From NCBI RefSeq assembly GCF_000009905.1, contig NC_006177.1, positions 930,001 through 994,000 of the forward strand: a stretch of 64,000 nt of DNA, in the 5' to 3' direction. Both the position numbers and the translations under genes were made by a program. Numbering within the stretch: the first letter of the stretch is position 1; each line of letters opens with the position of its first letter. Below are positions 17,141-50,510 of this stretch, piece by piece. This stretch comes from Symbiobacterium thermophilum IAM 14863 (GTDB taxonomy: Bacteria > Bacillota > Sulfobacillia > Symbiobacteriales > Symbiobacteriaceae). The notes beneath the pieces were generated by a model. That model saw nothing but the letters and a program-made list of their open reading frames with translations, had not been told where the DNA came from and ran no database searches.

Positions 17141-17249
17141 CGGCTTGCCGCAGCGAGATGGAGGGCCATCCCCGGCCGGTTCCCGCAGCGGCGCACAGCG
17201 CGGTTCGCACGAGGGACGCCCGTCCGGAGGCGCATATCGGCGCCCGGTG

Positions 17250-17830
17250 GGACGCCTGCGGAGGCACGTCATGCAGTGCACCTGCGGAACACCGTGGGGA
17301 CGTGTGATGCGTTGCCCCGGCGGGACGCGTGTGGAGGCTGTGACAGCGCCCGGTGGGACGTCATGTGGAGGCTGTGACAGCGCCCGGCGGGACGTCATGT
17401 GGAGGCACGTGATGCAGTGCCCCTGGGAAACGCCGTGGGGACGTGTGATGCGTTGCCCCGGCGGGGCGCGTCTGGAGGCTGTGACGGCGCCCGGCGGGGC
17501 GCGTCTGGAGGCTGTGACGGCGACCGGCGGGACGTCATGTGGAGGCACGTGATGCAGTGCCCCTGGGAAACGCCGTGGGGACGTGTGATGCGTTGCCCCG
17601 GCGGGGCGCGTCTGGAGGCTGTGACGACGCCCGGCAGGACGTCATGTGGAGGCACGTGATGCAGTGCCCCTGGGAAACGCCGTGGGGACGTGTGATGCGT
17701 TGCCCCGGCGGGGCGCGTCTGGAGGCTGTGACGACGCCCGGCAGGACGTCATGTGGAGGCACGTGATGCAGTGCCCCTGGGAAACGCCGTGGGGACGTGT
17801 GATGCGTTGCCCCGGCGGGGCGCCGGAGAC
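17250..17830. repeat. Non-coding tandem-repeat array, 107-bp unit
   Basis: The element GACGTCATGT starts at 17391, 17531, 17638 and 17745, giving spacings of 140, 107 and 107 bases; the 140-base unit carries an extra 33-base partial duplication. A diverged unit precedes them from about 17260. Within a unit, GTGATGC-NN-TGCCCC occurs twice, about 43 bases apart, so the unit is itself an old duplication. 107 is not a multiple of three and no frame resembles a protein, so the array is non-coding. It fills most of the 850-base gap between the thioesterase and Mrp genes. A later copy ends in unique sequence at about 17830. Confidence 0.85.
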
Positions 17831-20280: not shown

Positions 20281-22400
20281 GCCCAAACACCCGGATGTTC
20301 CGTGAACTCTGCTGTGGTTGTCTCGAAAGAGGCGCTTTTTCACATTGCCCTCGGCATGGAAGTCGAAAGCCCTCGGTCGCCGGCGTGCATGATCGCATCG
20401 ACTGAGGCGGCTTCCGGGTCACTGCCTGAGTGACTCCCCGGAACGCCACGGCGAGTTGATCCAGCGCGCCGTGCCACGTCAACCCGGACTGCAGGTCGTT
20501 CTTCCGGACGCGCCGAGGCGACCTCGAAAACCGGCGCTTTTACACTTTGCCCTCGGCGTGGAAGTCGAAAGCCACCGGTCACCTACGTGTATAACCGCAT
20601 CGACGGCCGCGGTCTCCCGACCATCAGTCAGCCCCATCGCACTGAACGCCTCGGCTTACGGGTCCATCGCACTGTTATGTTGACTCGGGACTCCTGAGCG
20701 CTTGGGCGGTCTGCTCGACCTCGCAAGCGGCGCTTTTCCACTTTGCCCTCGGCGTGTAAGTCGAAAGCCTTCGGTTGCCAGTGTTAATGATCGCATCGAC
20801 TGCCCCGACCTCCCAACTATCAACCTGCCCCATCGCACTGAACCCCGCGGGCTGCGGGTCCCTCGCACTGTTATGTTGACTCGGGACTCCTGAGCGCTGC
20901 TCCGGGGCGCTTTGCTCGACCTCGCAAGCGGCGCTTTTCCACTTTGCCCTCGGCGTGAAAGTCGAAAGCCTTCGGTTGCCAGCGTTTGATCGCATCGACT
21001 GCCCCGACCTCCCAACTATCAACCTGCCCCATCGCACTGAACGCCTCGGCTTACGGGTCCATCGCACTGTTATGTTGACTCGGGACTCCTGAGCGCTGCT
21101 CCGGGGCGCTTTGCTCGGCCTCGCAAGCGGCGCTTTTTCACTTTGCCCTCGGCGTGAAAGTCGAAAGCCTTCGGTTGCCAGCGTTTGATCGCATCGACTG
21201 CCCCGACCTCCCAACTATCAACCTGCCCCATCGCACTGAACGCCTCGGCTTACGGGTCCCTCGCACTGTTAAGTTGACTCGGGACTCCTGAGCGCTGCTC
21301 CGGGGCGGTCTGCTCGACCTCGCAAGCGGCGCTTTTCCACTTTGCCCTCGGCGTGGAAGTCGAAAGCCACCGGTCACCTACGTGTATAACCGCATCGACG
21401 GCCGCGGTCTCCCGACCATCAGTCAGCCCCATCGCACTGAACGCCTCGGCTTACGGGTCCCTCGCACTGTTATGTTGACTCGGGACTCCTGAGCGCTGCT
21501 CCGGGGCGCTTTGCTCGGCCTCGCAAGCGGCGCTTTTTCACTTTGCCCTCGGCGTGAAAGTCGAAAGCCTTCGGTTGCCAGCGTTTGATCGCATCGACTG
21601 CCCCGACCTCCCAACTATCAACCTGCCCCATCGCACTGAACGCCTCGGCTTACGGGTCCCTCGCACTGTTAAGTTGACTCGGGACTCCTGAGCGCTGCTC
21701 CGGGGCGCTTTGCTCGACCTCGCAAGCGGCGCTTTTCCACTTTGCCCTCGGCGTGAAAGTCGAAAGCCTTCGGTTGCCAGCGTTAATGATCGCATCGACT
21801 GCCCCGACCTCCCAACTATCAACCTGCCCCATCGCACTGAACGCCTCGGCTTACGGGTCCATCGCACTGTTATGTTGACTCGGGACTCCTGAGCGCTGCT
21901 CCGGGGCGCTTTGCTCGGCCTCGCAAGCGGCGCTTTTTCACCTTGCCCTCGGCGTGAAAGTCGAAAGCCATCGGTGGCCAGCGTTCATGATTGCATCGCC
22001 TGCCGCAGCTTCCCCATCGTCAACCTGCCCCATCGCACTGAACGCCGCGGCTTACGGCTCAATCCCGGTGTTACGTTAACTAAGGACGCTTATGCGCTGC
22101 TCCGAACTGGTTGCCGCGAGCTTGCAAGCGGCCCTTTTTCACTTCACTGCCGGTCTGTAAGTCAAAAGCCCTCGGTCGCCATCCTGCATGCTCGCACCGA
22201 CGGCGCATGCTTGCCGGCTACAATCTTGCGCCAAGGCACGGAACGCCGCGGCCTGCACGTCCATCGCGGTGTTACGTTAACTCAGGACTCGTATGCGCTG
22301 CTCCGGAGCTGCTGCCGCGAGCTTGTAAGCGACCCTTTTTCACTTCGCTGCCGGCGTGAAAGTCGAAAGCCCTCGGTCGCCAGCGTTTCACCTTCGCCCC
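20281..22400. repeat. Large non-coding tandem array, about 200-bp unit, about 11 copies
   Basis: The landmark TGACTCGGGACTCC recurs at about 20681, 20877, 21076, 21275, 21476, 21675 and 21876, spacings of 196-201 bases. Each unit also has CTTTTTCAC...TTTGCCCTCGGCGTGAAAG, in which TTTCAC can pair with GTGAAA; some copies have both arms changed (TTCCAC with GTGGAA, near 21333). Outer units (20281-20680 and 22080-22400) are clearly diverged while inner ones are almost identical. Unit lengths vary by non-multiples of three and frames break between copies, so no protein is encoded. The array fills the whole gap between two convergent genes, each closed by a terminator. Confidence 0.88.
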
Positions 22401-38209: not shown

Positions 38210-39261
38210 AGGGCGTGTGGAGAAAGTCCGTCCGGCGTGGTGAGGGTCCGACGCCCGGCGAGTCGGCCTGGCATGTTGCGAACCGAGCATCGGGTGGGGC
38301 TGCTGCGCGTCAGGCGGGCCCGACGCCCAGCCCGCCTCACAGGCGTCACGGAGATCGGCCGCCGGGGCTGATGGATCTGATCTGGGCCGGATTGCGTCGC
38401 TCCCCGGGGCAGACGGCTGCCGGCCTGCTCGCGGGGCTGCTGGCCGCGCTGGCGCTGGTAGGCGGGCTCAGCCTATTCCAGGGCATGGGGCGCATGCTGG
38501 AGCAGGGGCTGGACAGGCTGGGTGCGGACATGGTGCTGGCGCGGCCCGAGCACAGGCCGTTGGTGGAGCAGTGGCTGGCCACGGGCGCCACCGAGCCGAT
38601 ACCGGCGACGATTGACGTGGCCCGGTGGCGGCAGGGGGTCGACGAGGCACAGATCCTCGGGCTGGCCGGGGTGGAGGCGGTGGACCTCTCGGCCGGCGGA
38701 CCGGGGGTGCCGGCCGGCGAACTCGCATCGATCCTGGTCCTGCGGCTTCAGTTCTGGGAGTCCGCGATGATGGCCCGCGCCGCGCTGGCGGACGTGCTCC
38801 CGGAGGCCGACGCCGTGGTGGGGGAGCAGGCGACCCGTCACGTGCTGACGGACCTGCAGCCGCTGGTGCGGCACCTCGGCCGGGCGGCGGCCGTGGCAGC
38901 CCTGGGGGCTTCCCTGGTGGCCGGACTTCTGGCGTCCGTCCGGGTAGGGCAGCGGCGGGCCGAGTTGGGCATGCTGCGGGCGATGGGCGCCACCCGGGGG
39001 TATCTGGTCGCCCTCACGGTGGGGGAGTCTTGCGCCCTGGCCCTGGCCGGCGCCCTGGCCGGCGGGCTGCTGGTCGTCGGAGCGCTGTGGCTGATCCCCG
39101 CGACCGCCGACGTGCTGCGGTTCCTCGGCGTCCTGCCCGCGCTCGGGCTGGTGGGCCTGGCTGCTGCCGCCATCACCGTGCTGTCTGCCCTCGCGTCGCT
39201 GCCGACCGCTCTGCAGGCGGCCTGGCTGGACCCGCTGGAGGCGGCCCGCCGCCATCGGTGA
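38206..39261 (+). CDS. Second FtsX-type permease of the DUF4418 operon
   Basis: This 351-residue protein starts by GTGA overlap with the ATPase and has an Arg/Gly/Pro-rich stretch of 55 residues. A single helix (about 65-88), an extracytoplasmic part (90-215) and three C-terminal helices with the FtsX motif RRAELGMLRAMGATRG follow. ATG at 38371 would give a normal permease start but has no ribosome site, so the true N-terminus is uncertain. Its extracytoplasmic domain is smaller than in the first permease and lacks the Cys pair, so the complex is probably an asymmetric heterodimer. Confidence 0.82.
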   Translation: MKGVWRKSVRRGEGPTPGESAWHVANRASGGAAARQAGPTPSPPHRRHGDRPPGLMDLIWAGLRRSPGQTAAGLLAGLLAALALVGGLSLFQGMGRMLEQGLDRLGADMVLARPEHRPLVEQWLATGATEPIPATIDVARWRQGVDEAQILGLAGVEAVDLSAGGPGVPAGELASILVLRLQFWESAMMARAALADVLPEADAVVGEQATRHVLTDLQPLVRHLGRAAAVAALGASLVAGLLASVRVGQRRAELGMLRAMGATRGYLVALTVGESCALALAGALAGGLLVVGALWLIPATADVLRFLGVLPALGLVGLAAAAITVLSALASLPTALQAAWLDPLEAARRHR

Positions 39262-39495
39262 ATCGCCCCGGCGGGCGGGGGGCGGGATTCTTGCGTCCTG
39301 TGGGGCTTGCGACGCTCCGGCGCCGGTCTGTCCTCGGCGTTCCCACGTTCTTGGGGAGATCCGAGCGCCGTGTGGAGGCCAGCGCCGCCGAGCTCGTTGC
39401 GAAACGTGTGGAGCCGAGGGTCGTCCCTCGGCTCTCTGGGTGCTCTGGGCTCTGTCTGTGGGTTCACGTCAGGGAGTCCGGGAGTGGGTCCCCGT

Positions 39496-40206
39496 CTACG
39501 GCGGGCGGCGCGACGAAACCGGTGGGATACACGGTGAACTCCCACCTGGCCTGTCTTTCGCGGCCGTCTTCCTCCCAGTTCGGGGTGGCGTGACGAGATA
39601 TTCGCCGCGCCGGTCGGCGGTGGCGGCGGTCGTGGACAGCGCAGAGAAGCGGTCTATCTCGGACTCATCGGGCAGGCGAAGCGGACTCTCCGAAGATCCG
39701 ATAGCGCTCGGGAACTGACGGATGTACGGAAGGTGCCCCCACTGCTCGAAAACCAGGTCCACCGCATCCTGAGCCGACTTCGGCAACTTCGCCGGAGCTT
39801 GCGCTTCGCTCTGGACGAAGGCGTTCAGTTCGCCGGTTGCGGCATCGATGAGGAAGGTGACGCCCGAGCTGGGGTGGAGGATCTGGACGATCCACGTGCT
39901 GCACTCCCGCTCATGCCACTGGCGGTCGGGGCTACGGTGCCCGTAGTCTTCAACCAGAAGCGCGTCGAATGTCCGCCCTTCCAGGGCTGCGGGCGGAATC
40001 CGCGCGAGCGCTTCTTCGGCCGACGTCACGGGGTCGGTCTGCACCGGTGGCAGAGCAGCCCGCCCCGCATCCCCGGCGGCGTCAACAGGTTCCATCACTG
40101 GCGGGGGACTCGTTCCCTGATGGGAACGTGGCGACGCAGGTTCAGGAACGGTGCAGCCCGCGATGAGCAGCAGTGCGTCACAGACCGCAGCGAACCCGGA
40201 TCGCAT
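39496..40206 (-). CDS. Predicted lipoprotein of unknown function
   Basis: This 236-residue protein has a lipoprotein signal peptide with lipobox LIAGC (Cys at residue 18) and a Pro-rich linker. A domain of about 120 residues follows, ending in a PepSY-like strand pattern (GVTFLIDAATGELNAFV). The last 40 residues are basic and look unlike the rest; a frameshift near the 3' end is possible. ATG at 40206 has AAGGAGG seven bases upstream. It is divergent from nothing nearby and lies at the left edge of the accessory island. Confidence 0.6.
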   Translation of the reverse strand: MRSGFAAVCDALLLIAGCTVPEPASPRSHQGTSPPPVMEPVDAAGDAGRAALPPVQTDPVTSAEEALARIPPAALEGRTFDALLVEDYGHRSPDRQWHERECSTWIVQILHPSSGVTFLIDAATGELNAFVQSEAQAPAKLPKSAQDAVDLVFEQWGHLPYIRQFPSAIGSSESPLRLPDESEIDRFSALSTTAATADRRGEYLVTPPRTGRKTAAKDRPGGSSPCIPPVSSRRPP

Positions 40207-40405
40207 GCATGCGCCTCCTTCACCGACATCTGCACAGGATATAGCGCCAGGCCTGGGGGGTCGCGCCGGTCCGACTTACGGAACCGGACAGGGGCTTGGG
40301 CAGCCGGGCGAATCGCCGCGCAGGCCCATAAGCACGTTTGCTCCCTGGCCGCGCGTCGGCTTCAAGGGGCCGTGCGACGAGCGTTCCGTTGCGCGGCCGG
40401 CGCTG

Positions 40406-41446
40406 TCAGAACGACGAGCATTGGCTCCTGGCCGCGGCTTTCCGGTACCACTCCGCCCGCTGCTCGAGAAAGCGAGCGACGTGCCAGCGGTCCTCTCTGG
40501 CTCCCGCGAAGTGCAGGCGGTGGCCGAGCGCCCGCGCGATCCCTGCGCAACTCAGATCCTGCGGCCACAGCGAAATTAACTCGATGCCCTTCTCCAGGCA
40601 GAGTCCCCGCTTGATGAGATCCCGCCTGCGCCGAGCACGGAACTCCTCGACGCTGGGATAACGTTCGGTCGGGCCGGCGTGCTGATGGCCCTGAAACTCG
40701 ATGGCCAGTTTCTGGTCCGGCATGTACACGTCGACTTGCAGGCGCCCGCGGGTCTCGACGTTGTCCAGGCCGGTGATCTCTGCATTCTCCAGAACCTCCA
40801 CGCCAGGGTACATCTCCCGAATCAGGCGCGCGAGGATGTACTGGCCCTGCGAGTACCCGGGTGTGCTCCTGGCTACCTGGAGGCCGCGCTCCAGTTCCTG
40901 CAGTTCTTGTGCGCGTTGAATGGCGCGCGGGTTGGCTCCGCGGACGTTGTAGATCACGCGCCGTGCCTTCCGGTGAGGGCCGCCTACGAGCCAGCGCTGC
41001 GCAATCAACGCCCTGACGTGCTTGCTCAGGGTATCCTGACTGTATCCCGTGGCCTTCCGCAGCTCCGTGTACTCGAACCGACCGCCCATCCGGCCGATCA
41101 GGCCCCACGTCCAGCAGGCACCCCGTGGGAGACGCCTCTCGAAGAGGATATCCGTGGGCAGAACCAGGCGCGGGCCACCCATGGGCCCGGTGATCTCGCA
41201 GCGGACGACGCGAAGGCTTATCCGCGCGCAGTTCAGCCATCCTGCCCGGGACAGCACAGACAGATACTTGTGCAGGCTGGGGAGGCTGATACCGGCGCCC
41301 TCCCGCAGCTCCTTATACGTAAACTCGCTCCGCAGGTGGCAGAGGGCGGAAACGTAACACCACACTAGCTTGGCGCCTTCCGGTATGGAACGGTCGGCCC
41401 AGAGTCGATCCGGGACCGTCACCAGCCGCAGTCGCATGCGCATCAC
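40406..41446 (-). CDS. Two-winged-helix protein fused to a PD-(D/E)XK nuclease-like domain
   Basis: This 346-residue protein has two winged-helix-like modules. The first is at residues 15-80 (EFTYKELREGAGISLPSLHK, YLSVLSRAGWL). The second is at about residues 120-170 (FEYTELRKATGYSQDTLSKH, VRALIAQRWL). The C-terminal domain (about 200-320) has VDVYMPDQKLAIEFQGHQH followed by RRRRDLIKRGLCLEKGIELI, the Asp-x9-Glu-x-Gln pattern of PD-(D/E)XK endonuclease-like domains related to very-short-patch repair and homing nucleases. It is probably a sequence-specific DNA-binding nuclease or a derivative. Codon use is less GC3-biased than in housekeeping neighbours. A 204-bp repeat array begins about 120 bases upstream of its start. 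Confidence 0.72.
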   Translation of the reverse strand: MMRMRLRLVTVPDRLWADRSIPEGAKLVWCYVSALCHLRSEFTYKELREGAGISLPSLHKYLSVLSRAGWLNCARISLRVVRCEITGPMGGPRLVLPTDILFERRLPRGACWTWGLIGRMGGRFEYTELRKATGYSQDTLSKHVRALIAQRWLVGGPHRKARRVIYNVRGANPRAIQRAQELQELERGLQVARSTPGYSQGQYILARLIREMYPGVEVLENAEITGLDNVETRGRLQVDVYMPDQKLAIEFQGHQHAGPTERYPSVEEFRARRRRDLIKRGLCLEKGIELISLWPQDLSCAGIARALGHRLHFAGAREDRWHVARFLEQRAEWYRKAAARSQCSSF

Positions 41447-41564
41447 CGATGGAAAGATTCGCCATACCTGGATGGGATTCCTTCCTTAGATCGAGCGAAT
41501 GTTCGCTCAGATCTTCCCTCTGTTCGCTTGCATCCCTGTACGATCGGTTGCCGCCAGCCGAGCG

Positions 41565-42584
41565 TGTGCTCGTCGACCGGCGTGCGCCGGTGCTGGGCGA
41601 CCGGCATACGCCGGGTTTTCACTTGGTCAGCAGTTGCCAAGTGAGACTCCAGCGGATCCGAGTGCGAACCGGGAGCGACTTGGGCCTACGTATGCCCCGG
41701 GGGACCTGTGTCTGCTCGCGACTGCGCCTGCAAGCCACCCGGTACGAGTTGCCTCCGCCAGCCGCGCGTGTGCTCGTCGACCGGCGTGCGCCGGTGCTGG
41801 GCGACCGGAATCCGCCGGTTTTTCACTTGGTCAACATGCGCCAGGTGAAGATCCAGCGGATACGAGTACGGACCGGGGGTGACTTGAGCCTACGTTCGCC
41901 GCGGGGGACCTGTGGTCGTTCTCGATTGCGTGCGTCTGCGTCCCGGTACGAGTTGCATTCGCCAGCCGCGCGTGTGCTCGTCGACCGGCATCCGCCGGTG
42001 CCGGGCGATCGGCATACGCCGGGTTTTCACTTGGTCAGCGTACGCCAGGTGAAGATCCAGCGGATACGAGTACGGACCGGGGGTGACTTGAGCCTACGTT
42101 CGCCGCGGGGGACCTGTGGTCGTCCTCGATTGCGTGCGTCTGCGTCCCGGTACGAGTTGCACTCGCCAGCCGCGCGTGTGCTCGTCGACCGGCATCCGCC
42201 GGTGCCGGGCGATCGGCATACGCCGGGTTTTCACTTGGTCAGCGTACGCCAGGTGAAGATCCAGCGGATACGAGTACGGACCGGGGGTGACTTGAGCCTA
42301 CGTTCGCCGCGGCGGACCTGTGGTCGTCCTCGATTGCGTGCGTCTGCGTCCCGGTACGAGTTGCACTCGCCAGCCGCGCGTGTGCTCGTCGACCGGCATC
42401 CGCCGGTGCCGGGCGATCGGCATACGCCGGGTTTTCACTTGGTCAGCGTACGCCAGGTGAAACTCCAGCGGATCCGAATGCGAACCGGGGACGACTTGGA
42501 CCGATTTCGTCGGTGCGGACCTGTCGTTGCCCCGGTGTGTGCGCCAGCGAGGCTTCAGGTGCGGGTCTCCGAAGGTCCCCGCCG
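41565..42584. repeat. Tandem array of five 204-bp units next to the nuclease gene
   Basis: TGTGCTCGTCGACCGG recurs near 41565, 41769, 41973, 42177 and 42381, exactly 204 bases apart. Units 3-5 are nearly identical while unit 1 and the right half of unit 5 are diverged. Each unit has TTCACTTGG-N-CCAGGTGAA (CCAAGTGAG in unit 1, 41617-41644), which can form a hairpin. Because 204 is a multiple of three, a rightward frame (41449-42606, 385 codons, 68-residue repeats) stays open. However, its third-position GC is low for this genome and copy differences are not concentrated at third positions, so coding is doubtful. Confidence 0.85.
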
Positions 42585-42606
42585 GGCGGCCGTTGCTGCA
42601 GAGTAA

Positions 42607-43669
42607 CTCGCACCCGATGGTCTTGCACGTTCGCACTCTGCCCACGTCAGAAACCGGCCGTCACGGAACCGTTGCCAGGGAGACGGCGCAGGTGTGTGCC
42701 GTCGGGGGATGCACGTGATGGCGGTTGCCGCGGTCCCGGGGCACCGGCGCCGTGTTCCATTCGAGTGCGAGGTCTGGCGCGGCAGGGGGTTGCGGTATCG
42801 CCGCGGCGTTGCCGTAGCGGCGCCCAAACGTCATGAGGTGTCATACGGTGCCCATGATCAAGCTGAACGTCGCCGCAGCCGTTCAAGTCTCACTTGGCCG
42901 TCGGTCCCAACGCGAAAAACACCGGCGCCAAGCCGGTTCGTCCTCCAGCGTGCCTCGGATGTACCTCAGCAGGTGTCGTGCACAGTGCGTGCTGGGGCGT
43001 TGGCCAGGTTCCAGGTGAGCGTAGGGGCTGGGGCTGGAAAGCGGTCGGGCCCATCGCCTTCTTCCGTGACCGCCGGAGTTGGACTTGCACCGGCTACGTC
43101 AAGTCGAAACGCAGCGCAAGTCGACATGGGAGTGCCCCGGACAGCCGAGTTAAGCAACCCGCGGGCCAGCTTCGACTCGAAACGCTCGCCGAATGTGTTG
43201 GTCCCGCACATGCGGACGGGAAACAGAATGGGGGGCCGCCTGGCCAGATCGAACTGCGCACAGGCGAGCCCCGGTGATTCTAAATCCCGTATTTGGCCCA
43301 TCCCCACGGGAGGATCTTGAAGTAATAGCTGGGGACGAACTTGGAAAATCCGGAGATCTTGGTGGCCGGAAACTTGGACCCGTAGAGCACGCGGGCCACC
43401 TCCTTCCCAGGTCATAGGCACGATCCATCATTGGAGTGTATGCTTTCGCGGACACCGCGGTCACAGAACAGGCGGGGGGAGTTCGGCCCGGGTCAGGTGT
43501 GGCTCGAGTGGGCCACCGCCGGAGGCGAGGCGTCAACCCGGATTAGGTCCGGTACTCGCTTGGAGCACAGACCAGCCCGCGCCTGGGCCGGTAGTGGCGC
43601 ACCAGGCCGGCTCGTCATCCGGGTCTCATGTCGGCGGGCGCCGGAGAAACGCATCCCAGGCCGTGGCCA
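42607..43669. other. About 1 kb with no intact gene
   Basis: Frames here are short, overlapping on both strands and of mixed composition; none has a credible ribosome site plus domain. GC is lower and less phased than in genes. A frameshifted gene tail is visible at 43280-43455. The region probably holds decayed DNA between the repeat array and the DUF255 gene. Confidence 0.5.
43280..43455 (-). pseudogene. Frameshifted C-terminal remnant of an unknown gene
   Basis: On the minus strand, a frame reading VSAKAYTPMMDRAYDLG runs into a second frame by a one-base shift near 43408. That second frame reads KEVARVLYGSKFPATKISG, then FSKFVPSYYFKILPWGW and a stop at 43280. The aromatic, compact ending looks like real protein, unlike the surrounding frames. 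The family is not recognised and the upstream part is missing. Confidence 0.4.
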
Positions 43670-45712
<2,043 letters not shown>

Positions 45713-46576: not shown

Positions 46577-47191
46577 ATGGTTCTGAGCGAGATGGTGCCG
46601 ATGGGCGAGATGATGCCATGGGGCGGGATGGCGCCGATGGGCGGACCCGGCCCGATGAGCAAGCCGATGATGCCTTACGGCCGGCCCGGCTGGCCGGTGA
46701 TGCCCCAGATGACGCCAGGGATGATGCCGGGGATGATGCCGGGGATGATGCCGGGGATGATGCCGGGGATGATGCCGGGGATGATGCCGGGGATAACGCC
46801 GGGGATGGTGCCGGGGATGACGCCGGGGACGACGCCGGGGATGATGCCGCCGATGACGTCGCCGCAGATGATGATGCCGCCGGGCGCGCCGCCGGAACTA
46901 GTTTACGGCGGCCAGGTCATGATCCCGCAGGAGCAAAGCTACGTGGAGAACATCCTGCGGATGAACCGGGGCAAGACGGCGACGGTCTACGCCACCTACG
47001 ACAACAACCCGGAATGGGCCGCCCGGGTCTTCCGGGGACAGGTGGAGAACGCGGCGCGGGATCACGTCGTGCTGAGCGATCCCCAGACCGGCATGCGCTA
47101 CGTGATCCTCATGGTGAACATCGACTACCTCACCTTCGACGAACCCCTGCGCTACCCGGAGGAGATCTACCGACCGCCGGGGACGTTCTGA
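46577..47191 (+). CDS. gerQ: Spore coat protein GerQ with Met-Pro-Gly repeats
   Basis: This 204-residue protein has a C-terminal GerQ domain of about 90 residues (SYVENILRMNRGKTATVY, FRGQVENAARDHVVLSDP, LMVNIDYLTFDEPLRYPEE). GerQ is needed for CwlJ to assemble in the spore coat. The N-terminal 110 residues are Met/Pro/Gly-rich, with six PGMM tetrapeptides in a row and further PGIT, PGMV, PGMT, PGTT variants encoded by 12-base DNA repeats (46720-46850). In Bacillus this region is Gln/Lys-rich and cross-linked by transglutaminase; here Gln is scarce. ATG at 46577 abuts AGGTGG, so ATG at 46592 may also be used. Confidence 0.9.
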   Translation: MVLSEMVPMGEMMPWGGMAPMGGPGPMSKPMMPYGRPGWPVMPQMTPGMMPGMMPGMMPGMMPGMMPGMMPGITPGMVPGMTPGTTPGMMPPMTSPQMMMPPGAPPELVYGGQVMIPQEQSYVENILRMNRGKTATVYATYDNNPEWAARVFRGQVENAARDHVVLSDPQTGMRYVILMVNIDYLTFDEPLRYPEEIYRPPGTF

Positions 47192-50173: not shown

Positions 50174-50283
50174 TTCCTGCCTTCAACACGGCTCCCGGAT
50201 CCCAGTTTACCGCCGGGGCGCAGCCCCTTGCAAGCGGGCCGACGGCGGAGCCCGCGCGGCAGCCTTCCCGTGCCGCTTCCCCG

Positions 50284-50510
50284 GCCGGACCGGGAGCGGT
50301 CGGATCGGGAGCGGCCGGATCGGGAGCAGCTGGATCGGGGGCATCCGGATCGGGGCGTCCGGATCGGGGCGGCCGGATTGGGGCGGCCGGATCGGGAGCT
50401 GTCGGATCGGGAGCTGTCGGATCGGGAGCTGTCGGATCGGGAGCTATCGGATCGGGAGCTGTCGGATCGGGAGCGGCCGGATCGGGAGCGGCCGGATCGG
50501 GTGCGATCGG
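50284..50510. repeat. Tract of about fifteen 15-bp repeats
   Basis: Variants of GGATCGGGAGCTGTC repeat every 15 bases; the central copies are identical and the left copies vary. The tract lies between the divergent MFS and deacetylase genes, occupying most of the 446-base gap. It is probably a slippage-prone minisatellite that could shift the spacing of promoters; no protein use is likely. Confidence 0.85.

Follow-up and report, generated by a model that had tools for sequence, protein, structure and literature searches.

The system nearest in logic to the one described here is the partnership of REP/BIME palindromes with RAYT (TnpA-REP) enzymes, known as 'REPtrons'. As set out in the available part of the source, the chromosomal gene of the enzyme has short palindromes on its flanks, which are also found at other places in the genome, singly and in arrays, and several enzyme/repeat pairs can be present in one genome (PMC3733652). 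RAYTs are HUH tyrosine transposases (PMC3733652, same part). Other precedents are found among homing endonucleases. I-Bth0305I, an EDxHD enzyme, couples a nuclease fold with invariant D, H and D residues to DNA-binding modules, and is reported to form a dimer on a very long target, almost 60 bp (PMC3943268, available part). The fold and the D, H, D residues are also present in a CapR-like phage outgroup (PMC12350094, available part). SegB, a homing endonuclease of phage T6, drives tandem amplification, also in trans, and the part of that report available mentions no cognate palindrome arrays (PMC13096335).

The family examined here resembles REP/RAYT in logic, with an enzyme of another superfamily: a winged-helix (wHTH) protein with an EDxHD-like nuclease domain in place of a HUH transposase that cleaves single-stranded REP at a tag sequence. 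Its repeats differ as well, being inverted half-sites of about 20 bp set in tandem units, 37-250 bp long, which for the most part precede the gene. Unlike the EDxHD homing endonucleases, and unlike SegB with its phage context, the family was not found here in an intron or phage setting, carries one or two winged helices and is linked to repeat arrays. Among open-licence PMC full texts, no account of such repeats or of this nuclease family in Symbiobacterium was found, and a term search of the main text of a 2025 REP survey, as far as that text was available, returned neither Symbiobacterium nor RAYT (PMC12306157). The position of most genus members behind repeats, and the palindrome that related copies in sister species tend to keep, suggest a partnership of enzyme and repeats that is undescribed.

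Table 1. Features of the window, the whole stretch of 64,000 nucleotides that was analysed (positions counted from its first letter).
Feature	Position	Strand	Description	Basis
Nuclease gene	40406..41446	(-)	GTG start; 346-aa protein: wHTH, wHTH, EDxHD/Vsr-type nuclease (putative)	ORF, Pfam, PHROGs
First winged helix	41177..41419	(-)	about residues 10-90	HTH_20 sub-threshold; structural neighbours
Second winged helix	40937..41125	(-)	about residues 108-170; wing poorly modelled	MarR_2 above cut-off
Nuclease domain	40508..40870	(-)	residues 193-313	alignments, AlphaFold2 model, structural matches
Tandem array	41552..42498		204-bp period, 4.6 copies; directly upstream of nuclease gene, 106 bp from start	
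Palindrome core, unit 1	41616..41647		half-sites 41616 (+), 41637 (-), up to 2 mismatches	
Palindrome core, unit 2	41820..41851		half-sites 41820 (+), 41841 (-)	
Palindrome core, unit 3	42024..42055		half-sites 42024 (+), 42045 (-)	
Palindrome core, unit 4	42228..42259		half-sites 42228 (+), 42249 (-)	
Palindrome core, unit 5	42432..42463		half-sites 42432 (+), 42453 (-)	
Second window array	20519..22388		about 201-bp period, 9.4 copies; palindrome TTTTCACTTTGCC, loop, GAAAGTCGAAAGCC	

The window holds a single member of the family, no second one being found anywhere in its 64 kb (Table 1). The gene is a real ORF under constraint, with dN 0.142, dS 0.796 and a dN/dS of about 0.18 against the sister species. 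The first-pass annotation had read it as two winged helices with a C-terminal nuclease beside a 204-bp array, and the domain searches, the structural model and the mapped array bear this out. In Pfam, the first winged helix is matched by HTH_20 (residues 39-69, E 7.3e-5, below its cut-off) and the second by MarR_2 (residues 118-163, E 2.8e-6, 27.8 bits against a cut-off of 27), and the winged helices of the family are of MarR/ArsR type. The nuclease domain of the window protein has no Pfam match; in PHROGs, the protein matches phrog_559, an HNH-named family, with E 1.7e-12 and phrog_9084, a homing-endonuclease family, with E 3.5e-8. Both PHROGs are matched by all 20 aligned relatives, five of which also give a weak match to DUF2726 (best E 0.0011). 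The Pfam and PHROG matches of the family are to wHTH and homing-type nuclease models only.

An AlphaFold2 model was built with 38 viral relatives alongside the window protein and the orthologue from the sister. Of 171 relatives from viruses 80 were kept, and profile A4 uses 38 of these. Mean pLDDT was 74, low at residues 151-171 in the second winged helix and much higher in the nuclease, with block means of 85-97 over residues 201-310. The nuclease topology in the model is H-EEE-H-E (helix, three strands, helix, strand), a predicted alpha-beta3-alpha-beta fold like those of Vsr and I-Bth0305I. In a VIA-align second look, residues 193-314 aligned with the very-short-patch repair endonuclease Vsr (1cw0) at Z 8.1 over 110 residues with an rmsd of 3.2, with Vsr 1vsr at Z 7.5 and with the I-Bth0305I catalytic domain (3r3p) at Z 7.7 over 95 of 98 residues, values of Z 7-8 being common in such lists. 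Both enzymes appear through this second look only, and Foldseek alone placed no nuclease among its best 50 rows. Vsr is a small stand-alone mismatch enzyme; it differs from the window protein in having neither winged helices nor arrays. Sequence searches of the PDB gave no match with the single window protein, wHTH and other DNA-binding regulators among the matches listed with profile A1, and none at E<=1 with profile A4.

Residues D239, E250, H256, D276 and K279 are invariant in 20/20 family members and in the aligned viral relatives; the stretch VDVYMPDQKLAIEFQGHQH covers residues 238-256 of the window protein. Residue 202, taken as the first E of EDxHD by an assignment made without structure alignment, is E in 12 of 20 members and Q in the other eight, including the window protein. 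Because the window protein reads E250-x-Q252, and so lacks the lysine at the third PD-(D/E)XK position, the domain looks like a Vsr/EDxHD type rather than a canonical PD-(D/E)XK nuclease. The first-pass assignment to the PD-(D/E)XK type therefore stands at the level of fold.

The genome of the window (3,566,135 bases, one contig) contains seven matches, including four paralogues at 33-38% identity and two at 29-30%. In a profile search of this genome all seven members were full-length, and the only extra matches were three short ones to the wHTH part. A single scan of genome contigs gave one relative, and the breadth of the family therefore rests on 398 genomes sampled from the phylum, 28 of which gave matches, with up to five candidates per genome scored among the matches listed. 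Among close relatives there are seven members in the sister species (G399), six in G398 and four in G400, and 12 matches, some of them fragmentary, in G401. Many members outside the genus have a single winged helix only. A public MAG contig (L027) that duplicates the G399 locus L137 was excluded from all counts except one percentile test, which set aside two loci for short upstream sequence and was given no weight.

It had also been proposed that the gene belongs to a mobile or defence system in an accessory island, a guess that is not supported and passes over what matters most here. The locus is syntenic in the sister species, with a YyaL-like gene and an ABC transporter on either side. Although 88 phage and six plasmid records match the window protein, none covers 80% of it, which speaks against a phage- or plasmid-borne gene. 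Nor is it a homing element that spreads its reading frame from within an intron or as a free-standing phage gene, being chromosomal, with the same neighbours in the sister, and its phage relatives having only the nuclease domain in common with it. A defence island was rejected on the same neighbours and on the lack of any PADLOC nuclease match. Adjoining the nuclease gene at 39496-40206 (-) is an ORF for a lipoprotein-like protein of 236 aa, which no blastn match covers in the sister locus.

The association of these genes with arrays was measured against twenty evenly spaced 20-kb stretches of the genome (400 kb) under the same array threshold. A large strict tandem array lies at most 1.5 kb upstream in 6/7 members of the window's genome, with periods of 204, 37, 231 (or 116), 250, 149 (or 75) and 86 bp. 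The background held four arrays, which gives P=0.0235 for an array within 1.5 kb of a random point on any one side; the binomial chance of six in seven, worked by hand, is of the order of 1e-9. In two congeneric genomes fetched afterwards (G398 and G399) a strict upstream array was present in 8/13 members, and the upstream k-mer score exceeded that of controls (p 1.8e-4). Six more distant genomes (G400, G401, G404, G407, G410 and G414) had a strict upstream array in none of 22 members and no k-mer enrichment (5.00 vs 4.97); the k-mer comparison of the later-fetched genomes used 29 of 35 loci. One locus, L142, shows no visible palindrome array.

Over the 75 members examined altogether, a strict upstream array accompanies 17: within the genus 14 of 20, beyond it 3 of 55. 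In a first sample of other Bacillota the count was three in 33 loci, or three arrays in 46 kb as against two in 420 kb elsewhere. A looser score, which counts how often a 9-mer occurs within 900 bp with both strands included, was applied to loci with a full 900-bp flank (30 of the 33 other loci and all seven own ones). In the other Bacillota it reached 9 or more upstream of 7/30 family genes, as against 0/71 upstream of other genes at the same loci and 0/30 downstream of family genes. It separates weakly in the own genome (4/7 vs 4/26 controls, rank test p 0.098). Enrichment in unrelated Bacillota is weaker than in the genus, where the association of nuclease and array is very likely genuine. 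The consistency of neighbourhood on which the first-pass annotation had staked its reading was found within the genus, the shared neighbour being the upstream array and not a gene. Its idea of an array-maintenance system was a good instinct. That homologues always lie beside arrays, a point it had raised for checking, is false across the 75 members.

Several of the arrays consist of inverted pairs of a half-site of about 20 bp. In the window array each of the five units carries TTTTCACTTGG and, beyond a loop of 10 bp, its inverse. In the L034 type GAGGCGGATTGTGCA is followed by its inverse at a distance of 34 bp, and in 13 loci scanned all 56 convergent half-site pairs of this type stood at 34 bp. 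Exact 11-mer inverted-repeat density picked out L033 and L034 clearly and L032 weakly, and did not pick out the window array. In a unit-wide shuffle test the inverted repeat of the window unit did not stand out from chance (8.5 vs 7.9 +- 1.2), nor did those of L029, L039, L036 and the 116-bp reading of L030, and L032 (10.5) did not exceed its best shuffle (11.0).

Arrays of the L034 type have a palindrome of about 53 bp alone in common and not the spacer, and since it is the palindrome that is common between arrays, each array looks, from its sequence, like one palindrome plus local flank, tandemly multiplied. Periods within this type differ (74, 75, 85, 86, 107, 117 and 126 bp, at L034, L055, L059, L101-L104, L108-L110 and L138). 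In a post hoc test on the distinct periods, they fall close to multiples of 10.5 bp (R 0.96, p 0.0098), as if the units were aligned along a single face of the DNA helix. The left flank of one such array (L055:13390-13560) has five matches at 97-99% identity in G399 and is probably the end of another mobile element.

In a tree of 20 genus members and one outgroup, orthologue groups extend across three genomes. Half-site queries were taken by eye from one member each, with mismatch limits set on the 400-kb background, and they found the upstream region of the orthologue for L028 (L144), L030 (L140), L032 (L141) and L139 (L147 and L031). The L034 query reaches L138 one mismatch beyond its limit, a pair whose common half-site emerged from the ungapped upstream comparison; the L029 query does not reach L143 and the L028 query does not reach L137 at the limit; some queries also match neighbouring clades. 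Half-sites appear in this way to be common to most orthologue groups, and across orthologous nucleases the half-site tends to be kept as the period and the spacer vary. For the best ungapped match between upstream regions the median score was 14.8 in 13 pairs with at least 58% protein identity and 11.3 in 120 other pairs (p 2.3e-4), two of the 13, both with L031, scoring through sequence other than the half-site. The closest-protein comparison was also the best upstream match in 15/23 cases, four of the 15 from two L031 pairs. A crude 11-mer test of co-variation between repeat and protein was negative (rho -0.08).

Palindromes that stand beside their gene and are also dispersed, as with REP/RAYT, were found for the L034 type and not for the full-length unit of the window. 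Matches to the L034 palindrome number 46 and fall in 12 places of the genome, one of which adjoins its nuclease. An HMM search around the other 11 gave no family member, with one weak HTH match in L110, and at these nuclease-free places the palindrome stands both in arrays and as single copies. Among the relatives it has three matches in G399 and none in G398, G400 or G401. L096, a member in G324, has a palindrome that turns up again next to its paralogue L091 and also on contig C17, where the two stretches fetched gave no family member. Turnover is seen at one site, where an L034-type array here (L102:7640-8310) corresponds to an L030/L140-like array in the sister (L252:780-1023) between the same flanks.

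The full-length palindrome unit of the window finds only its own five copies at E<=1e-13 and only its own array at E<=0.01. A shorter pattern of the window type, TTTTCACTT-n-AAGTnGAAA, has nine occurrences in three clusters (control 0), one cluster being the second window array and another lying beside L030. This second array has a palindrome related to those of the nuclease-linked arrays and no nuclease gene nearby. In the sister, no array stands immediately upstream of the orthologue of the window gene, where one degenerate palindrome was seen by eye; some 3.3 kb beyond it there is a 192-bp array whose palindrome is related. Other repeats in the window are a third, non-identical array at 17240-17823 with periods of 107 and 140 bp, which does not clearly belong to any palindrome type considered here, and short-period repeats of 12 and 15 bp at 46693-46864 and 50282-50505, probably inside coding sequence.

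The reading preferred here is that of a chromosomal family in which winged helices are fused to an EDxHD/Vsr-type homing-endonuclease domain, each member tending in the genus to have its own repeat family, and in which the palindrome is cut and the arrays are amplified. Each wHTH-wHTH monomer would bind one half-site of about 20 bp, and a protein dimer would sit on the palindrome. The EDxHD domain would then nick or break the DNA in or beside the palindrome, and repair by unequal recombination or re-replication would multiply the palindrome tandemly together with its local flank. Now and then, repair may also plant the palindrome in another intergenic region. The gene's neighbouring array would serve as operator and at the same time as favoured substrate. 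Binding, dimerisation, cutting and repair-driven amplification are inferred; the precedents of I-Bth0305I for the dimer (PMC3943268, available part) and of SegB for the amplification (PMC13096335, available part) lend the model plausibility and do not prove it. For the mechanism as a whole, a probability of about 0.5 is estimated.

The chief rival is that the arrays are operators only. The winged helices would bind the upstream repeats and repress their own gene, a nuclease encoded on the chromosome being hazardous; the arrays would expand passively by replication slippage, and the nuclease would function elsewhere, for example in repair or phage restriction. Such an arrangement agrees with arrays that lie upstream and not downstream of the gene, with a motif common to orthologues and with MarR/ArsR-type winged helices. 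The presence of the same palindrome in arrays and singly at 11 nuclease-free places argues against the operator as the whole story, and self-repression fits poorly with palindrome types that replace one another at one site and with array lengths far beyond the need of an operator. On balance this explanation is considered unlikely.

Less likely again is a protein resembling a replication initiator, with winged helices that bind iterons by descent from a plasmid initiator, a nuclease that nicks the palindrome for local re-replication, and an array that is relic or substrate. RepA-type plasmid initiator N-terminal domains bind iterons, and such domains (4pql, 4pt7, 5kbj and 4pta; Z 9.6-8.4) are the best structural neighbours of the first winged helix (model residues 5-97). 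A PHROG named replication initiation protein is also matched by 13/20 family members. In that structural list, however, values of Z 7-8 are also reached by many winged helices that are unrelated, and the full wHTH-wHTH-nuclease architecture is on no plasmid record among those searched; the reading as a whole is distinctly improbable.

A chance or assembly effect could be imagined in a GC-rich genus full of intergenic tandem arrays, with the family in hypervariable intergenic places, and the failure of the association in more distant relatives and the existence of array-rich stretches elsewhere would suit it. Against it stand the background rate (four arrays in 400 kb, as against six of seven genes), the confirmation in genomes fetched later, the absence of arrays downstream of the same genes and a half-site, but not a spacer, common to orthologues; little credence is left for it. 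An equally faint prospect is an RNA-level or CRISPR-like role, with the array transcribed and its hairpins serving as small RNAs or guides: three of four palindromes fold well as RNA (z -4.6, -10.5 and, for a chosen 50-base palindrome of the window array, -5.8; fourth -1.3), but any inverted repeat gives hairpins, spacers are near-identical within an array, PADLOC gave no Cas-nuclease or defence-nuclease model match and no Rfam family was found in 39000-44000. A CRISPR array proper was ruled out by those repeating spacers, the PADLOC matches being wHTH regulators and other non-Cas-nuclease models, and a known RNA by the same Rfam result.

Taken at its broadest, the preferred reading of palindromes cut and amplified by their own nuclease would describe a second, independently evolved enzyme-plus-palindrome system. 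An EDxHD nuclease of homing type, domesticated and directed by its tandem winged helices, would cut its own palindromes to amplify, move and replace intergenic arrays chromosome-wide, and nuclease and half-site would co-evolve by clade, in up to seven pairs per genome. This broad form is tentative, with somewhat less than an even chance of being right, and the door to a new class would be open if cutting were shown. Should it prove true, the mode of life of REP/RAYT, in which an enzyme kept by vertical descent has a palindrome population of its own, was reached a second time, with a homing-nuclease domain. One genome would then offer up to seven natural enzyme/target pairs for reading the code from wHTH to half-site, and the genus's large intergenic tandem arrays would have a concrete source.
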